This document shows positions 5,748-40,345 of a stretch of DNA of 63,883 nucleotides, one piece after another; within the stretch, counting starts at the first letter, position 1, and the number at the start of each line of letters is the position of its first letter. The notes beneath the pieces were generated by a model. It was given only the letters and a program-made list of their open reading frames with translations. It was not told the origin of the DNA and did no database searches. Source of the DNA: Clostridia bacterium (GTDB taxonomy: Bacteria; Bacillota; Clostridia; Oscillospirales; CAG-272); contig JAFWXZ010000032.1 in assembly GCA_017522795.1 (NCBI GenBank), positions 1-63,883 on the forward strand, read 5' to 3'. The position numbers and the translations under genes are program-made.

Positions 5748-6224
5748 ATGTATTGGGGCAAGGATCATTTAAAGAAAATGTGGAAGCAGGTGGACTTGGA
5801 GGGTGTAAGATACGGATTTGTAAAAAACAAAACTAACGGATTTATCTTTGCTGTAGTCGATAGTGTTCTTGACTTTGATATAGAGGAGATAGAGATTCCC
5901 GGAGTTGTTAATGACTGTCCTGTTATGGAAATAGGAAAATTTTCTTTTTCAAGTTGTCACGAGTTAAAAAAGGTCGAACTTCCTCAGTGCATTATGGTTA
6001 TCGGAACTTACGCTTTCTCGAGCTGTGAAAACCTAAGCGAAATAAACGTTCCTTCAATGCTTGAAAAAATACATTATGGTGCTTTTAAGGAATGCCGTTC
6101 CCTAAACAAGATTGATATAGGTCCTAACGTAAAAGTTGAGGAAGGCACCTTCATTGACTGTCCGTTAGATAAAAAGTATCAATTTCAAGGCAAATACACA
6201 AGTAGTCGTGATATGTATAAGTAA
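5748..6224 (+). CDS. BspA-type LRR_5 protein
   Basis: The 158-residue protein has a 45-residue unique N-terminus followed by about four LRR_5 units (FSFSSCHELKKVELPQCI, FSSCENLSEINVPSML, FKECRSLNKIDIGPNV). No signal peptide is seen. Such repeats mediate protein contacts. It follows the broken paralogue by 45 bp and has its own ribosome site (GAAAGGA), and 23 bp separate it from the next gene, so the three probably form an operon from the 4654 promoter. Confidence 0.82.
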   Translation: MYWGKDHLKKMWKQVDLEGVRYGFVKNKTNGFIFAVVDSVLDFDIEEIEIPGVVNDCPVMEIGKFSFSSCHELKKVELPQCIMVIGTYAFSSCENLSEINVPSMLEKIHYGAFKECRSLNKIDIGPNVKVEEGTFIDCPLDKKYQFQGKYTSSRDMYK

Positions 6225-6247
6225 TTTTTAAAAGGAGATATTATAAT

Positions 6248-7102
6248 ATGTTTTTCACCAAACTCAAAAACTTTATCGTTCAATGCTTGTTGCTACCGAT
6301 TTCTTTTTTGATTAATATGTGTAGCGTCGGACCTATTGTATTGGTAATATCCCTCCTTACAGAAGGAGAGAAACTGGCAAACCTTTCAATGACGATTATT
6401 TCAGTAGTCGTTATGCTCCCCCTTGCCCTTGGTCTATCAAAATTACTCGTAAGGATTAAGGGTAAGCAAACTGACGATTACGCTACTTCTTTAGTGTGGC
6501 GTCAGGATGAAGTGACTACTCAATTTACATATGACGGAGAGGTTATCGCGGAATCAAAATACACCACTCCCGAATACTTATCACGCGAAACGAGTCATTG
6601 GTTAACGGGATGGGGAATATTTGCAGTGATTACATCGGTAATCGCCTTCCCTCTCCGTTTAATCGCAGTAATAGTCGCTTTTGTTGGTCTTTTCGTAAGC
6701 GAAATTTATACAACTCACAGGCCCTTGCCCGATGATTCAGGAATTGGAACGGGAAACAGAATTTTACACACACTGTTTGACTTTATTATTCTTCCCTCAC
6801 ACGCAGAGCGTGGCGAATCCTCTCCTCTTGCGTTTGCTTTTATGGGCGGTGACATTATTCTTTGTGTTTTAACATTCTTCATTAATATGCTGGTTTCTTC
6901 TGCCGCGGGAGATAGCGGAATCTGGACTTTACTACTCGCATTCGTTATGCTTATTCCTGTGCTGATTTTATTAATCAGGGACACTGTTAAGCTTTACCGT
7001 AACTATGACCTTCGAACAGGAATAATCAACTCGGCAAAACTACTTTGCATTTCCCTAATTCCTACCCTTATTGCTGTTATACTGATGATATTCGGTATTT
7101 AA
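6248..7102 (+). CDS. Polytopic membrane protein of unknown function
   Basis: The 284-residue protein has hydrophobic segments at about 7-40, 45-66, 120-150, 195-212, 222-245 and 262-283. A soluble loop of about 55 residues (70-125) contains DEVTTQFTYDGEV. I do not recognise the family. AAAGGAG lies 9 nt before the start. It closes the LRR operon, so a membrane partner for the LRR proteins is possible but unproven. Confidence 0.75.
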   Translation: MFFTKLKNFIVQCLLLPISFLINMCSVGPIVLVISLLTEGEKLANLSMTIISVVVMLPLALGLSKLLVRIKGKQTDDYATSLVWRQDEVTTQFTYDGEVIAESKYTTPEYLSRETSHWLTGWGIFAVITSVIAFPLRLIAVIVAFVGLFVSEIYTTHRPLPDDSGIGTGNRILHTLFDFIILPSHAERGESSPLAFAFMGGDIILCVLTFFINMLVSSAAGDSGIWTLLLAFVMLIPVLILLIRDTVKLYRNYDLRTGIINSAKLLCISLIPTLIAVILMIFGI

Positions 7103-7109
7103 AACCTTC

Positions 7110-7134
7110 GCCCTCCTAATTGGAGGGCTTTTTC
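7110..7134 (+). terminator. Terminator of the LRR/membrane protein operon
   Basis: GCCCTCC-TAAT-GGAGGGC-type hairpin followed by TTTTTC. It sits between convergent genes. Confidence 0.85.
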
Positions 7135-7135
7135 T

Positions 7136-8038
7136 TTAAAAACCGCGGGGATATTCTCCGCTTTCGGTAAGGGTTGAGAGAAAGGCTGACAAGCCTTTTC
7201 GGTCGGCGCGGTAGGTTATTCCCTGCCAGATGCCCTCACAGGAAAGGACTTGAACGGTAGCGCTGCCCTCGCCTATAAGACGGGAGATAACGGTGGGTAG
7301 ATAAAACTCGCAGCACAGAGGATCTGAAGCTATATTTTCATCAAGAAAACGAGTAAAGCGGCGCTCACACTCGTCAATTATATTTGGGGTAAAGCCCCAT
7401 AAATTTACCGAAACGGTGGCGGCGGGATCAAGCATTATTCTGCCTGACGGGGTATCGCAGAATACGTCATTTCCCTCTCTGACGATTCCCGTCCTCTCGC
7501 ATATTTCGGTGAGAAAGCCCTCCTTTATATTACATACTCCACGAGAGACCTTGCCGTTTTTGCTGAGGGTATTTTCCAGTCGATAGCCAACCATAGCGCA
7601 AGGCTGCCCTGCCCTATTCTGTGACAAAAAACTGAAAATGCTTGAAAGCGCCTCTCTGCCATAGAAATCATCGGCATTTATCAGCGCAAAGGGTGTGTTT
7701 ACTATCCCTTTCAAGCAGGCAACCGCGTGGGCGGTTCCCCAAGGCTTTATGCGCCCCGCGGGACAGGTGAAGCCATCGGGAAGTATGTCTATCTCCTGAT
7801 AGGCATAGTCAACCGAGATGCCGTATTTTTCGGGATAGGTATCGCTGACCTTGCGAAAATCTGCCTCTATCTCCCGATTTATTACGAAAACCACGCGGTC
7901 AAAGCCTACCCGCGCCGCATCATATACCGAGTAGTCTATTATTCTATGTCCGTAGCTGTCAACAGGCTCCAGCTGCTTCAGTCCTCCAAAGCGGCTTCCC
8001 CTCCCTGCCGCCATAATAACAAGAGCTAAATTTTCCAT
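7136..8038 (-). CDS. Nucleotidyltransferase (NTP_transferase family)
   Basis: Starting at the ATG at 8038 (GGAGG 6 nt upstream; the longer frame has no ribosome site) gives 300 residues. The N-terminus carries the nucleotide-binding signature AAGRGSRFGGLKQ (about 9-21), and ALINADDFYG near residue 121 supplies the metal-binding Asp pair. These are hallmarks of sugar-phosphate nucleotidyltransferases (GT-A fold), which make NDP-sugars from NTP and sugar-1-phosphate. The substrate is not identifiable. It is transcribed away from upp. Confidence 0.82.
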   Translation of the reverse strand: MENLALVIMAAGRGSRFGGLKQLEPVDSYGHRIIDYSVYDAARVGFDRVVFVINREIEADFRKVSDTYPEKYGISVDYAYQEIDILPDGFTCPAGRIKPWGTAHAVACLKGIVNTPFALINADDFYGREALSSIFSFLSQNRAGQPCAMVGYRLENTLSKNGKVSRGVCNIKEGFLTEICERTGIVREGNDVFCDTPSGRIMLDPAATVSVNLWGFTPNIIDECERRFTRFLDENIASDPLCCEFYLPTVISRLIGEGSATVQVLSCEGIWQGITYRADRKGLSAFLSTLTESGEYPRGF

Positions 8039-37428: not shown

Positions 37429-37458
37429 AGGACGACTCGGATTTCTGAGCCGCCCTGT
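37429..37458 (-). terminator. Array terminator E
   Basis: On the minus strand AGGGCGGCTC...GAGTCGTCCT, a 10-bp stem using two G-U pairs around an AGAAATCC loop. It belongs to the same family as the four hairpins at 37884-39775 and follows the last array gene. Confidence 0.8.
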
Positions 37459-37473
37459 TTTATGATGTTTGGC

Positions 37474-37824
37474 TCAACTATACTTACTATGTAACACCTT
37501 TATAACATTAATTAAAGTATTATATACTTGATCACTGCTACTCAAAGGATAGGTCATTCTATCATGATTACAGGAATCATACGAAATGACAAATTTATCG
37601 GGATAAATCTCTACGTCAACGCGATACGCCTGATATTTACCATGTACTCTTATGTATTTGTCGTTATCAGAACAATTAGTACGGATAGATATGACTCTTA
37701 TTTTTTCACTTTTAAATTCGCTTTTTAATTTGCCGCTTAAATAATCGAGTAGTAAATAGTCAAAAGCATTTTTATTTTTGTCTACTTTTCTCAAATACGA
37801 TCTAATTTTGCTTTTTTCAAACAT
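37474..37824 (-). CDS. Array gene 4: small soluble protein
   Basis: The 116-residue protein has no TM segment or signal. A charged helical start (KSKIRSYLRKVDKNKNAFDY) precedes several strands (KIRVISIRTN, YRVDVEIYPDKFVISYDS). I do not recognise it. The gene is clearly AT-rich. It is the last of four small genes behind cotJC and has its own TTGACT-17-TATAAT promoter fused to hairpin D. An orphan immunity or accessory function is possible but unproven. Confidence 0.65.
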   Translation of the reverse strand: MFEKSKIRSYLRKVDKNKNAFDYLLLDYLSGKLKSEFKSEKIRVISIRTNCSDNDKYIRVHGKYQAYRVDVEIYPDKFVISYDSCNHDRMTYPLSSSDQVYNTLINVIKVLHSKYS

Positions 37825-37855
37825 ATGAACTCTTCCTTAAATAATTGGTAAATTG

Positions 37856-37911
37856 ATTATATCATAGCGAAATGCAAAAGTCAAGGACGGCTCGATTTCT
37901 CGGGCCGCCCT
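37856..37911 (-). promoter_or_regulatory. Terminator-promoter junction D
   Basis: On the minus strand the hairpin AGGGCGGCCCGA-GAAA-TCGAGCCGTCCT (37884-37911) runs directly into TTGACT, 17 bp and TATAAT (37856-37884). Compared with hairpins B and C the upper stem has changed on both sides (TTTGA/TCAAA to CCCGA/TCGAG), so pairing is kept. Confidence 0.85.
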
Positions 37912-37923
37912 GTTTTTATTTAG

Positions 37924-37979
37924 TTAGAATTTCTTGTCACGCAGGATGTTAATTGTTTCGTGAGTACAGTCAAACTGAA
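37924..37979 (-). repeat. cotJC tail fragment D
   Basis: Downstream of the gene at 37989, the minus strand reads as the end of a CotJC-like protein: QFDCTHETINILRDKKF and a TAA. It then continues into the same CTAAATAAAAACAGGGCGG spacer that follows the real cotJC. Confidence 0.85.
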
Positions 37980-37988
37980 GTATTGCTA

Positions 37989-38393
37989 TCATCTGGCTTT
38001 CTTAAAAAGTGTTTTCTTTAGATAAGCTCGGATGCGTTTCCAATATATTATAACAAGTATTGAACCTATTTCTAATATGATTGCAATTATCAAAAGTAAA
38101 AATCCTATTGTATTTATGAAGAACATATGATAGGCTAGTATGAGAGAAATTCCCTGCACTCCTACCCACTCCATAAGTATACCGCCTGCTGAGAAATCAT
38201 TTAAATTAACATCTCTCATTATCTTATTTACACCTAATAATGCCATCGGAATAGACGCAATACTAGCAAATATGATTATGTTAATATCCTTAGATTCTAT
38301 ATACAAGAAAATGAATGCAATCCAACCATTGATTAACAAAAAAATCCATCCTAAAATTTTAAGAAGCAAGTTCGTGGTTAATCTTGTTTTCAT
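37989..38393 (-). CDS. Array gene 3: four-TM membrane protein
   Basis: The 134-residue protein has four predicted TM segments (about 10-30, 36-55, 68-88, 92-115) and a basic C-terminal tail (KRIRAYLKKTLFKKAR), so both ends are probably cytoplasmic. I do not recognise it. It is AT-rich, has a GGGAGGTG ribosome site and its own promoter at junction C. Tail fragment D follows its stop. Confidence 0.7.
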   Translation of the reverse strand: MKTRLTTNLLLKILGWIFLLINGWIAFIFLYIESKDINIIIFASIASIPMALLGVNKIMRDVNLNDFSAGGILMEWVGVQGISLILAYHMFFINTIGFLLLIIAIILEIGSILVIIYWKRIRAYLKKTLFKKAR

Positions 38394-38418
38394 TTGTGAA
38401 CACCTCCCATTTTTCTAT

Positions 38419-38474
38419 ATTATACCACACCCCACATAAAAAAGCAAGGACGATTTGATCTCTCAAACCGCCCT
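38419..38474 (-). promoter_or_regulatory. Terminator-promoter junction C
   Basis: On the minus strand hairpin AGGGCGGTTTGA-GAGA-TCAAATCGTCCT (38447-38474) is followed by TTGCTT, 17 bp and TATAAT (38419-38447). Confidence 0.85.
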
Positions 38475-38482
38475 GTTTTTTT

Positions 38483-38537
38483 CCTCATCCGTCATACTCG
38501 CAATGCTCGTATGCCTCCTTCCCCAACAGGGAAGGCT
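38483..38537. repeat. REP-like element inside tail unit C
   Basis: CCTCATCCGTCAT, a dyad (ATACTCGCAATGCTCGTAT) and CCTTCCC-CAACA-GGGAAGG, the same family as 13461-13507. It interrupts the conserved spacer between cotJC tail C and hairpin C, which is continuous in units B and D. Confidence 0.85.
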
Positions 38538-38540
38538 TAT

Positions 38541-38596
38541 TTAGAATTTCTTGTCACTTAGGATATTCATAGCTTCGCCAATACAGTCAACATGAG
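38541..38596 (-). repeat. cotJC tail fragment C
   Basis: On the minus strand it reads HVDCIGEAMNILSDKKF and TAA in the CotJC frame. Most differences from fragment B are synonymous (ATC/ATT, GCA/GCT, AAC/AAT, TTG/CTA). Confidence 0.85.
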
Positions 38597-38604
38597 GTGT
38601 TTTA

Positions 38605-39105
38605 TCATTTCTTCACATTTACGTAAGTGATCTCTACACTACTACATCCAAAATGGTTTATCATTAATTTATACAGCTTCCCCTCTCTTGTCATTGGTTT
38701 AGGTTTTTTTCTAATTTTACCTATTATCCATTCTATAAAACTAAAAAGCTTAATCAAACAAAAAAGCGGAAAGAAAATAATTGTAAACAGTACTTCTATT
38801 ACTTTATCTCTCACCTTGGCTTTCGAATCTCTAGTATCTTCCGGACCAATATATTGAATCGTTCCAACGAGCTCTATTCTGTCATCGAACTCCCAAATAT
38901 CAGGAATAAACCAATATCCCCCACTATGTCCCGCACGTTCAATACCAAATCCTATTTTGTTATCAATAGTGCTTATTATATAGTTTTCAATTTGAAAATC
39001 CCCTTTAGGATTAATACTTATCCTTTTGTCAGGAGAACCGTAACGGCAGTGATTTATAAACATTTCTTTTGTTCCATTGTAACAAAATCTGTATTCTTTA
39101 TCCAT
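38605..39105 (-). CDS. Array gene 2: protein with one C-terminal TM region
   Basis: The 166-residue protein has a soluble N-terminal domain of about 105 residues, aromatic and strand-rich (YRFCYNGTKEMFINHCR, GGYWFIPDIWEFDDRIEL). A TM region lies at about 106-130, followed by a basic tail. I do not recognise it. AT-rich, with an AAGGAG ribosome site and promoter at junction B. Tail fragment C follows the stop after 8 bp. Confidence 0.7.
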   Translation of the reverse strand: MDKEYRFCYNGTKEMFINHCRYGSPDKRISINPKGDFQIENYIISTIDNKIGFGIERAGHSGGYWFIPDIWEFDDRIELVGTIQYIGPEDTRDSKAKVRDKVIEVLFTIIFFPLFCLIKLFSFIEWIIGKIRKKPKPMTREGKLYKLMINHFGCSSVEITYVNVKK

Positions 39106-39130
39106 ATACTTTCTCCTTGTTTTTTCTTAT

Positions 39131-39188
39131 ATTATACCACACCAAAGCGAAAAAGTAAATAGGACGATTTGATTTCTCAAACCGCCCT
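39131..39188 (-). promoter_or_regulatory. Terminator-promoter junction B
   Basis: On the minus strand hairpin AGGGCGGTTTGA-GAAA-TCAAATCGTCCT (39161-39188) is followed by TTTACT, 17 bp and TATAAT (39131-39159). The G-U pairs make the stem perfect only on the minus strand. Confidence 0.87.
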
Positions 39189-39200
39189 GTTTTTATTTAG

Positions 39201-39257
39201 TTAGAATTTCTTGTCTCGCAAGATGTTCATTGCTTCGCCGATACAGTCAATATGAAG
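39201..39257 (-). repeat. cotJC tail fragment B
   Basis: On the minus strand it reads HIDCIGEAMNILRDKKF and TAA. The true CotJC ends HFQRFGEAMNILRDKNF. An in-frame TAG just upstream shows the fragment is not itself part of a longer gene. Confidence 0.87.
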
Positions 39258-39276
39258 TAATGTTGTTCGCTAAAAA

Positions 39277-39684
39277 TCATTTATACCTTTTATCAAATCT
39301 ATAAATTCTATATGAGTTTTGCTGTAGCCTTAAATAGATTCCTAATACAAGTTTTATTAATCCAAACAAAACCAACAAAATAGTGACTGCCTTGATTGAA
39401 AAAACGTTAGTTATTACTAAAATAGCATATTGAATAGGGAGAGTAATCAAAAATACAAGGTATAAATTATAAAAGAATTTATACTCCTTGGGATATACAG
39501 TATGTTCATTTATGTAATCAAAAGTGAATCGATCAAAAAATGACTTCGAACTATGTATCTTTTTAGCACTTTTCCTATTTCTTTTTGACAATAAGAAGCT
39601 AAAAAGCAGACCACGAAAATCCACGAATATGATTATATCTAAAAGAACTAAAAGTATATATAAAACGAGGATTATTTCATTCAT
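39277..39684 (-). CDS. Array gene 1: small membrane protein
   Basis: The ATG at 39684 has AAAGGAGC 9 nt upstream; an upstream ATG lies before this ribosome site. The 135-residue protein has TM segments at about 3-30, 72-92 and 98-118, with a basic loop (LSKRNRKSAKKIHSSKS) between the first two. I do not recognise it. It is AT-rich. It is the first gene after cotJC and uses the promoter at junction A. Confidence 0.7.
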   Translation of the reverse strand: MNEIILVLYILLVLLDIIIFVDFRGLLFSFLLSKRNRKSAKKIHSSKSFFDRFTFDYINEHTVYPKEYKFFYNLYLVFLITLPIQYAILVITNVFSIKAVTILLVLFGLIKLVLGIYLRLQQNSYRIYRFDKRYK

Positions 39685-39719
39685 TGATAAATTGCTCCTT
39701 TCCATTCATTTTCAATTAT

Positions 39720-39775
39720 ATTATACCACACCATAACGAAAAAGTAAAGAGCGATTTGATTTCTCAAACCGCCCT
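39720..39775 (-). promoter_or_regulatory. Terminator-promoter junction A (after cotJC)
   Basis: On the minus strand hairpin AGGGCGGTTTGA-GAAA-TCAAATCGCTCT (39748-39775) ends the cotJABC operon and runs into TTTACT, 17 bp and TATAAT (39720-39748). Confidence 0.87.
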
Positions 39776-39787
39776 GTTTTTATTTAG

Positions 39788-40345
39788 TTAGAAATTCTTA
39801 TCTCTCAGGATGTTCATCGCTTCTCCGAAGCGCTGGAAGTGGACGATCTCGCGCTGGCGGAGAAATTTGATGGCGTCGTTGACGTCGGGATCATCGGAGA
39901 GGCGGAGAATGTTATCGTACATTGCTCTTGCCTTCTGCTCTGCCGCAAGGTCCTCGTGGATCGAGGCGAGGGCGTCCTCCTTAGAGGCTATAGATGCCGC
40001 ATTAAAGGGCATTCCCGATGCGGATGCGGGGAATATGCCTGCGCCGTGGTCGACGTAATACTTATCAAATCCGCCTGCGATAATCTCGTCGGGAGTGAGA
40101 TTTCGTGTAAGCTGATAAACAATGCTGGCTACCATCTCCTGATGGCCCATTTCTTCTGTTCCGACATCGGTCAGGATGCCCACTACTTTTCCGTCGGGCA
40201 TAGTGTAGCGCTGGTTAAGATAGCGCATTGCCGCGCCCGTTTCACCGTCGGGACCGCCGAGTGCAGTAATTATAATGCTCGCAAGACGAGGATTAGGACG
40301 CTCGATCTTTACGGGATGCTGAAGCTGCTTCTGATATATCCACAT
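39788..40345 (-). CDS. cotJC: Spore coat protein CotJC, manganese catalase-like
   Basis: The 185-residue protein belongs to the di-manganese catalase fold. It has the family opening (QKQLQHPVKIERPNPRLASI), GGPDGETGAAMRYLNQRYTMP, and the metal-binding Glu/His set in TDVGTEEMGHQEMV. A second Glu pair lies in HEDLAAEQKARAMYD, and REIVHFQRFGEAMN ends the bundle. CotJC is incorporated in the coat and may remove peroxide. It closes the cotJABC operon. Its 3' end is the sequence repeated three times downstream. Confidence 0.95.
   Translation of the reverse strand: MWIYQKQLQHPVKIERPNPRLASIIITALGGPDGETGAAMRYLNQRYTMPDGKVVGILTDVGTEEMGHQEMVASIVYQLTRNLTPDEIIAGGFDKYYVDHGAGIFPASASGMPFNAASIASKEDALASIHEDLAAEQKARAMYDNILRLSDDPDVNDAIKFLRQREIVHFQRFGEAMNILRDKNF

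Follow-up and report, generated by a model that had tools for sequence, protein, structure and literature searches.

Gene-by-gene collection of cassettes is known mainly from integrons, which are based on a tyrosine recombinase, the integrase IntI, and its sites attI and attC; integrase-less cassette arrays also exist. Integrative elements and their integrase-less relatives, the cis-mobilizable elements (CIMEs), accrete in tandem at gene 3′ ends, flanked by attachment (att) sites, and the CIME-type cases involve tyrosine integrases and elements of many kilobases. Here we analyze an array of small genes behind the spore-coat gene cotJC in a stretch of 63,883 nucleotides (the window; contig JAFWXZ010000032.1 of assembly GCA_017522795.1, from a Clostridia bacterium of the CAG-272 lineage of Oscillospirales), which an earlier note, made from the letters of the DNA, had read as a series of insertions. 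We believe, with a probability of about two in three, that the array consists of stacked non-autonomous cassettes, each with a single gene, which have accumulated behind cotJC via half-sites of a large serine recombinase (LSR) at the 3′ end of this gene. In our best reading, its layout appears integron-like and its chemistry resembles that of the staphylococcal cassette chromosome (SCC).

The arrays are similar to integrons in that there is one array at one target, in one orientation, mostly with one open reading frame per cassette and a site behind most genes, that the small proteins are mostly of unknown function, and that related cassettes are found in different species. Unlike integrons, they show no IntI above cut-off (0/17 genomes), no attC-like folding, and a serine instead of a tyrosine recombinase signature; most cotJC cassettes have their own promoter and terminator, and the target is the end of a protein-coding gene. 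As with CIMEs, non-autonomous elements are stacked beside an autonomous one, but size and recombinase class differ. The combination of LSR-like chemistry and target with an integron layout, without IntI or a folding site, therefore suggests a variant of LSR integrative systems with an integron-like design. No description of such an array was found by keyword searches of open-licence PubMed Central.

In the sections of PMC6222049 that treat them, SCC and the Enterococcus cassette chromosome (ECC) are integrated by CcrAB LSRs at the 3′ end of rlmH, with multiple attR sites and inverted repeats in the att site of the circle, and ECC elements have a mean size of 42 kb. The cotJC locus is similar in that LSRs target the 3′ end of a conserved gene, and it likewise has multiple attR-type sites and inverted repeats in the att site. 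It differs in that the target is cotJC with GGCGA/GA instead of rlmH with TATCATAA, and in that the cassettes carry one small gene and no recombinase, as their own promoter-terminator units. SCC and ECC are recognized by ccr genes and insertion at the rlmH 3′ end, and the insertions here lie at cotJC; no search with ccr models was made. LSR elements also interrupt sporulation genes, such as skin in sigK, SPbeta in spsM, and gin in gerE (according to parts of PMC5595907, PMC5025042, and PMC4191935), and the text of PMC5595907 does not mention cotJC. Those elements and the ones described here are alike in targeting a sporulation gene with an LSR. There, the gene is interrupted and the element is excised in sporulation, whereas in the array genomes the inserts are single genes and cotJC reads through to its stop, so that its C-terminus stays readable.

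Results

Hybrid junctions behind cotJC

On the minus strand at the 3′ side of cotJC, the window contains a repeating module of a terminator hairpin, a promoter, and a small AT-rich gene, with four genes in total (A to D, 27-32% GC; Table 1). Genes A, B, and C are each followed by a junction that ends in ~11 terminal cotJC codons and a spacer. Gene D, the last one, has no tail 3′ of it, and the array extends down to position 37429, at a fifth hairpin. The module reported in the earlier note is real, and the sequences given there hold on direct reading: the cotJC terminus reads HFQRFGEAMNILRDKNF, and fragments B, C, and D read HIDCIGEAMNILRDKKF, HVDCIGEAMNILSDKKF, and QFDCTHETINILRDKKF, respectively. 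The hairpin sequence AAAACAGGGCGG, searched with at most one mismatch, has five matches in the window, all exact and all on the minus strand of the array; 0.33 would be expected by chance, and the copy number is thus above chance. The tail sequence GACAAGAAATTCTAA is found exactly at 37924, 38541, and 39201 and with two mismatches in cotJC itself; with three mismatches allowed there are six matches in total, which is not above chance. Repeat alignment of the window recovers the modules, and a 151-base junction query against the whole genome (1.65 Mb, 78% complete) gives five strong matches, all in the array, and three weak ones elsewhere (E 0.06-0.12). A consensus scan calls terminators at modules A, B, and C and at the fifth hairpin, and promoters at modules A, B, and D and behind the fifth hairpin; in modules C and D, both hairpin and promoter are visible in the sequence. 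The hairpins are AGGGCGG...CGTCCT-like, and the T-rich run after them overlaps or abuts the promoter -35.

We assembled 40 junction rows from 17 genomes and kept 38, two rows (G012 17948 and G014 4662; G numbers are our handles for genomes) being dropped as not cotJC-like. The junctions G052 1996 and G001 3694 lie outside the filter of the 40-row set. Each tail reads as a hybrid, with cotJC sequence, of the host's own or a foreign allele, to the right of a GA in the CotJC Glu/Asp codon, and the conserved CTTCATGTTGACTGTATTGGC to the left. The left part (HIDCI or HVDCI in translation) is conserved at the 38 junctions of the 17 genomes, and its consensus, AAATACTTCATGTTGACTGTATTGGC, has 25 of 26 positions at 70% or above (33 rows, picked with at most three mismatches). 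Compared with the cotJC bases left of GA, it is 52% alike in register and at most 32% alike at other shifts. The cotJC tail including the stop and then the spacer follow to the right of GA, and only this part is plainly CotJC. The earlier interpretation of each fragment as the last 17 cotJC codons therefore stands for the ~11 codons right of GA, while the part to the left would be a recombinase half-site. In the following, BL and BR denote the left and right (tail) halves of the site in cotJC, and PL and PR the left and right arms of LSR elements.

The junction tails were compared with 35 cotJC ends over 36 nt. Tails were classed as foreign when the best match was at least 0.83 and at least 0.10 above the host's own cotJC, and as own when the host's cotJC was the best match, at 0.83 or above. 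Eight junction rows have clearly foreign tails (four in G039, two in G006, and two in G018); for example, the tail at G006 4002 matches G063 at 94% and its own cotJC at 42%. The host's own cotJC is the best match in 10 rows (e.g. G006 100%, G014 97%, and G292 97%), and the three junctions of the window fall in neither class.

The homology of cassettes shared between genomes (G006/G292, G006/G369, and G018/G039) spans the gene and PL and ends at GA or a few bases to its right; on the other side, it fades in the terminator-promoter stretch. The right boundary is therefore sharp, and the left one is not. A hairpin similar to that of the array is found behind cotJC in two of six array-free relatives (G054 and G016), with no promoter close behind, and a stricter hairpin pattern was not found behind cotJC in 14 more distant genomes of the genus. 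Tail, spacer, and terminator may therefore together represent the old cotJC end. The hairpin may then be the cotJC terminator, as had been suggested, though in those relatives it comes without the promoter. The opposite candidate, a hairpin that belongs only to the cassettes, is made less certain by the same two relatives.

Serine recombinase elements at cotJC

PL corresponds to one arm of an inverted repeat, namely the attachment site of LSR elements whose insertion point is the same GGCGA in cotJC. Genome G369, from another genus, encodes an LSR of 504 aa with Resolvase, Recombinase, and Zn ribbon domains (Pfam), the stop of which is located 2 bp before PL and ~23 bp before GA and the cotJC tail. 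The order in this genome is cotJC, an 8-kb element with the LSR, a junction, a gene B-family cassette, and another junction. G245, which belongs to the same genus as G369 and is 94% complete, contains a remnant element with a truncated LSR (94% identical to the G369 LSR over 313 residues), followed by a junction, a hairpin, a promoter, a cassette, another junction, another hairpin, and a gene. LSR relatives at E <= 1e-60 are found in 17 of 395 genomes of the family. We examined 19 LSR loci, 18 from family genomes and one from an IMG/VR contig. At 11 of them, cotJC 3′ sequence lies within 70 nt of the LSR end and breaks near residue 175, and at one more it lies 1.4 kb off. The earlier note advised a search for a tyrosine recombinase or insertion sequence acting on this sequence; a recombinase of another class was found at cotJC, though only outside the genus of the window.

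Where both ends of an element are available, which is so in three cases, cotJC is cut short or changed directly behind the GE/GD codon (FGDTKQSG, FGETKQSG, and FGEAQQSKWN...), instead of being regenerated at its 3′ end as the earlier note supposed. The element ends form an inverted repeat around GA, with 19/26 in G369 and 20/26 in G245 (0/20,000 shuffles), and 15/26 in G411 (p 0.0015). Judged by its sequence, this repeat is the attP of the LSR, and its left arm is the left half of the cassettes. All three elements have GGCGA at both ends; since the window's cotJC reads GGAGA, the core is likely GA. We initially placed the crossover exactly at GA and gave this up; it lies within GGCGA, probably at the GA dinucleotide. 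A second candidate, ACTTC at 17 nt (junction) versus 12 nt (cotJC) before the core read as an attP/attB offset, was rejected because scans of 35 cotJC sequences are best at shift 0. The G369-type element has the marks of LSR integrative elements, namely a three-domain LSR next to the att site, an inverted-repeat attP, and a target split at the crossover (also in G245 and G411). In the arrays, the left half-site matches the attP arm, with the boundary at the core to within a few bases. A putative cognate LSR is found in the same genome as an array in G369 (full-length) and in G245 (truncated), and in none of 70 genomes of the window's genus.

Symmetry in the 40 junction rows averages 7.45/26, about as in intact cotJC (6.5/26). 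The cassette junctions are thus not symmetric, which suggests hybrids of P-left and cotJC-right in which only the left half is P-type. All four joint types were seen (BL.BR, BL.PR, PL.BR, and PL.PR), the last in G444. G444 (loci L096/L171) is an IMG/VR contig of 26,429 bases, classed as viral, with an LSR element at cotJC and an LSR 57% identical to that of G369. Its cotJC left half faces the LSR. A P-left/P-right joint follows at a distance of 25 kb, as tandem elements would have it; the symmetry of this joint is weak (12/26, p 0.048).

Arrays in related genomes

A CotJC match is present in 55 of 61 sampled genomes of the genus. The junction pattern, with at most three mismatches, is found in 12 of 70 genus genomes at 27 sites, and the reversed control pattern at none in the same 70. 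We compared regions of 3.5-20 kb around sites in 11 other array genomes and around cotJC in six site-free relatives. The same architecture with different genes is found in the 12 genomes and in other genera. Arrays contain one to five junctions, and in the fetched array genomes every junction has one orientation. Near cotJC of the six fetched array-free relatives, no junction was found with up to six mismatches. Both comparisons recommended in the earlier note thus came out as it anticipated, with the same hairpin and tail around different genes in some relatives and no array in others, and they support its proposal that small genes were repeatedly inserted at one site.

Ten array genomes out of 12 have the array on the cotJC contig, behind cotJC. 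Among these 10 are G001, whose cotJC lacks its 5′ part for a reason other than array insertion, and G022 (L072 2558-3524), in which a transposase gene, IS30-like by eye, is located directly behind cotJC, between cotJC and the cassettes. In G052, array and cotJC are on separate contigs, cotJC near a contig end. In G058 (L069 3250-4900), a two-gene array preceded by a partial tail, GCCGAAGCTATGGAGATT, lies beside other genes, and cotJC was not found in the genome; this may be a secondary site or a translocated array. All 12 genus array genomes are incomplete (56-88%), and none of 22 high-quality genus genomes has a junction site.

Beyond the genus, a similar pattern with at most two mismatches is found in nine of 395 family genomes. 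Judged by context, six of these are genuine. Four of the six come from other genera and carry GAC or GAT at the place of the CotJC Asp; the matches in G155, G366, and G159 were dropped for want of a tail or cotJC context. The genus of G369 and G245 has a real array by context in 3/30 genomes. Exact matching against 84,980 species genomes yielded 10 stretches from seven named Clostridia/Oscillospiraceae metagenome-assembled genomes, five of which are labelled goat colon, yak rectum, or roe deer cecum. An IMG/VR search for the junction gave one contig, and a plasmid collection gave three records with weak matches within cotJC only.

Cassette genes

At E 1e-5, the genes within an array show no homology to one another, and homologous cassettes recur in a different order, in other hosts, and in other genera. 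Besides the gene B family (Table 1), a lipoprotein-like cassette gene is common to G052, G001, G058, and G292. G006 and G292, which belong to different genera, share a cassette with 85% aa and 87% nt identity, compared with 66% for CotJC, and G018 and G039 share one with 92%, compared with 73% for CotJC. Both identities are available for 13 chosen pairs, and in seven of these the cassettes resemble each other more than the CotJC proteins do. The dN/dS of eight chosen cassette pairs is 0.12-0.40, which marks these as working genes under purifying selection.

The cargo is small, AT-rich, and mostly without a known family. Few of 45 array proteins have a Pfam family: SF0329, DUF2310, and DUF2691 are each found in two, and there are a leucine-rich repeat protein, a DUF3885, and a weak Imm32 match. 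Three proteins have strong matches to PHROG families of unknown function, and defence models gave two matches, near threshold. Relatives of gene B were not found in IMG/VR, and a PDB fold search with its AlphaFold model (five-row alignment, pLDDT 69) gave no match with E <= 0.001.

Discussion

Mechanism and alternatives

In the proposed mechanism, each gene with its own promoter would end in a ~22-26 bp left half-site (PL) of an LSR-family attachment site, and LSR elements would insert at GGCGA around the CotJC FGE/FGD codon, with GA probably as the core. Every joint combines a left half, BL at cotJC or PL elsewhere, with a right half, BR or PR. Each recombinant would keep a right half, which in cassettes would be the cotJC tail, spacer, and terminator (BR), so that the cotJC C-terminus stays intact and the target (BL + BR) is restored for the next insertion. 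A PL.BR circle inserted into BL.BR would give BL.BR-cassette-PL.BR and recreate both partners, which would explain the stacking, the tail alleles, and the intact cotJC end. An LSR supplied in trans by passing elements would insert or remove cassettes (BL.R x PL.R' -> BL.R' + cassette + PL.R), and further shuffling of genes would come from homologous exchange along the stretch of tail, terminator, and promoter. Tentatively, we extend this to a serine-recombinase counterpart of the integron, in which the cotJC 3′ end may be the insertion platform and PL.GA.BR the cassette site; an LSR that need not lie in the array could then stack genes, remove them, and transfer them between genera. Since cassettes carry the cotJC tail as right half, each insertion would recreate the platform, and every reaction of platform and cassette site would be reversible.

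Several points weigh against accretion via LSR half-sites. The LSR clade is found in none of 70 genomes of the window's genus, so the arrays there would be mobilised in trans, or be relics, or now be shuffled by homologous recombination; six of the 12 array genomes, all incomplete, have no LSR domain at all. Seven of the 19 LSR loci (three ~50% and four ~34% identical) lack adjoining cotJC sequence. The cassette junctions do not have the complete attP, with both arms P-type, that would be expected of a circular form, and neither a circle nor strain-level variation could be seen. In attB, the zinc-domain motif should lie nearer to the core than in attP, by 5 bp; the G369-type element shows no such shift, and similarity peaks at shift 0, in a comparison where the attB arm also codes for protein. 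All rows of the 40-row set contain GA because the filter required it, and the junction at G001 3694 has AA instead. Tails are alike anyway just right of GA, where the homology of shared cassettes ends. In six of the 13 chosen pairs, the cassette is less close than CotJC (e.g. G014/G039, 68% vs 86%; gene B of the window and G006, 45% vs 73%). As the proteins differ in constraint, these identities support transfer in the best pairs and not in all. Finally, the LSRs covered in parts of PMC3783163 recombine attP with attB and leave attR-type hybrids unused unless a directionality factor is present. The cassette junctions are such hybrids, so textbook LSR behaviour leaves their use unexplained.

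The main rival is RecA-dependent exchange, which we consider unlikely but serious. PL would then be an old scar of an LSR element, and the array would since have grown and changed only by homologous recombination (natural transformation or unequal crossing over) in the tail-terminator-promoter stretch. The absence of the LSR clade from the genus would fit this, as would the left edge of shared cassettes, which lies in the terminator-promoter stretch with tails and hairpins upstream that differ by host. Hairpins are also slightly more alike within hosts than between them (0.88 vs 0.84; 28/43 rows usable; 141/5000 shuffles), a weak host effect. However, genera that have an 85% aa cassette in common share a short stretch that is identical only in part, PL is conserved across genera although exchange alone would not demand this, and an LSR element lies beside cassettes in both G369 and G245.

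We find it improbable that the cassettes owe their movement to a true integron or another tyrosine-recombinase system (Xer/dif-like), with the LSR elements as mere neighbours. The layout of one array in one orientation, with one gene per cassette and a site behind most genes, would suit such a system, and tyrosine recombinases are seemingly present in 14/17 genomes, by sub-threshold matches that all 14 control genomes also give. However, the integron integrase model (TIGR02249) has no match above cut-off in the 17 genomes, which are incomplete, the three junctions of the window fold on both strands no better than shuffles (z -1.65 to 0.54), and the half-site matches that of LSR elements. Local tandem duplication of one cotJC-tail module, with later divergence or replacement of the gene between copies, is very improbable: modules do lie in tandem on the same strand with similar hairpins, but the duplication is already contradicted by the lack of mutual homology within an array, the homologues in other species, and the eight tail rows closer to another species' cotJC than to their own. 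Chance or an assembly artefact, which the incompleteness of all 12 genus array genomes and the empty high-quality ones might suggest, can practically be dismissed, as separate assemblies share the architecture, G245 has an array in another genus at 94% completeness, and the reversed pattern gives no site.

Small genes piled up behind a spore-coat gene in gut Clostridia look like integron-style gene collecting with a different enzyme class. If the accretion via LSR half-sites is true, an independent serine-recombinase version would mean that cassette capture evolved more than once, and it would explain the spread of small genes of unknown function among gut Clostridia. The arrays also pose the question whether an LSR accepts hybrid (attR-type) sites when both partners share one half.

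Coordinates and further observations at cotJC

Table 1 Features of the cotJC array in the window.
Feature	Position	Strand	Basis
cotJC, 185 aa, host gene; 3′ end is the putative attachment target	39788..40345	-	ORF (open reading frame); Pfam Mn_catalase 3.7e-51
GA of Glu175 codon, probable crossover point (attB core)	39822..39823	-	cotJC and junctions differ left, alike right; LSR element ends bracket GGCGA
Right half BR: cotJC C-terminal codons and stop	39788..39821	-	direct reading, tail comparison
AAAACAGGGCGG positions	37450, 37905, 38468, 39182, 39769	-	window pattern search
Module A terminator hairpin	39748..39775	-	consensus scan
Module A promoter, TTTACT-17-TATAAT, extended -10	39720..39748	-	consensus scan
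Cassette gene A, small membrane-like protein (by eye), no Pfam match; start picked by ribosome-binding site	39277..39684	-	ORF
Junction B, putative left half PL and GA core	39235..39261	-	junction pattern match at 39232-39257, junction alignment
Junction B, cotJC tail (BR)	39201..39234	-	direct reading, tail comparison
Module B terminator hairpin	39161..39188	-	consensus scan
Module B promoter	39131..39159	-	consensus scan
Cassette gene B, 166 aa; family common to G006, G369, G292, G410; GIERGGHSGGYW-like motif	38605..39105	-	homology
Junction C, putative PL and GA core	38575..38601	-	junction pattern, alignment
Junction C, cotJC tail (BR)	38541..38574	-	direct reading, tail comparison
Module C terminator hairpin	38447..38474	-	consensus scan
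Cassette gene C, 134 aa, membrane-like (by eye), no Pfam match	37989..38393	-	ORF, Pfam search
Junction D, putative PL and GA core, diverged	37958..37984	-	junction alignment
Junction D, cotJC tail (BR)	37924..37957	-	pattern search, tail comparison
Module D terminator hairpin	37884..37911	-	repeat alignment, sequence reading
Module D promoter, TTGACT-17-TATAAT	37856..37884	-	consensus scan
Gene D, 116 aa, last gene, no junction after it	37474..37824	-	ORF
Fifth terminator hairpin, array end	37429..37456	-	pattern search, consensus scan

Short hairpin repeats of the CCTTCCCC...GGGGAAGG...GGATGAGG type are found in several tail-terminator spacers, at 38480-38541 in the window and also in L011, L013, and L071.

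In five genomes (G002:C21, G031:C25, G036:C30, G030:C19, and G008:C15, where C denotes the contig), inserts of 8-27 kb interrupt cotJC at residue ~135, and both halves lie on the same strand; G017 and G048 have it split likewise, with the pieces on different contigs. Each insert of the five same-contig splits contains, on the opposite strand, a CotJC-like gene with 32-34% identity, which looks like a substitute carried by the element, and similar CotJC-like paralogues are also found in genomes without a split. Another LSR gene, different from the first, terminates at L164 (G279, 5985-7832) immediately next to a piece of cotJC beginning at residue ~133 (AEQKA). This is probably the type of recombinase behind the mid-gene splits, in which case cotJC would have two LSR target sites. 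Together with the arrays, this singles out cotJC as an attachment gene, probably one with two LSR targets.

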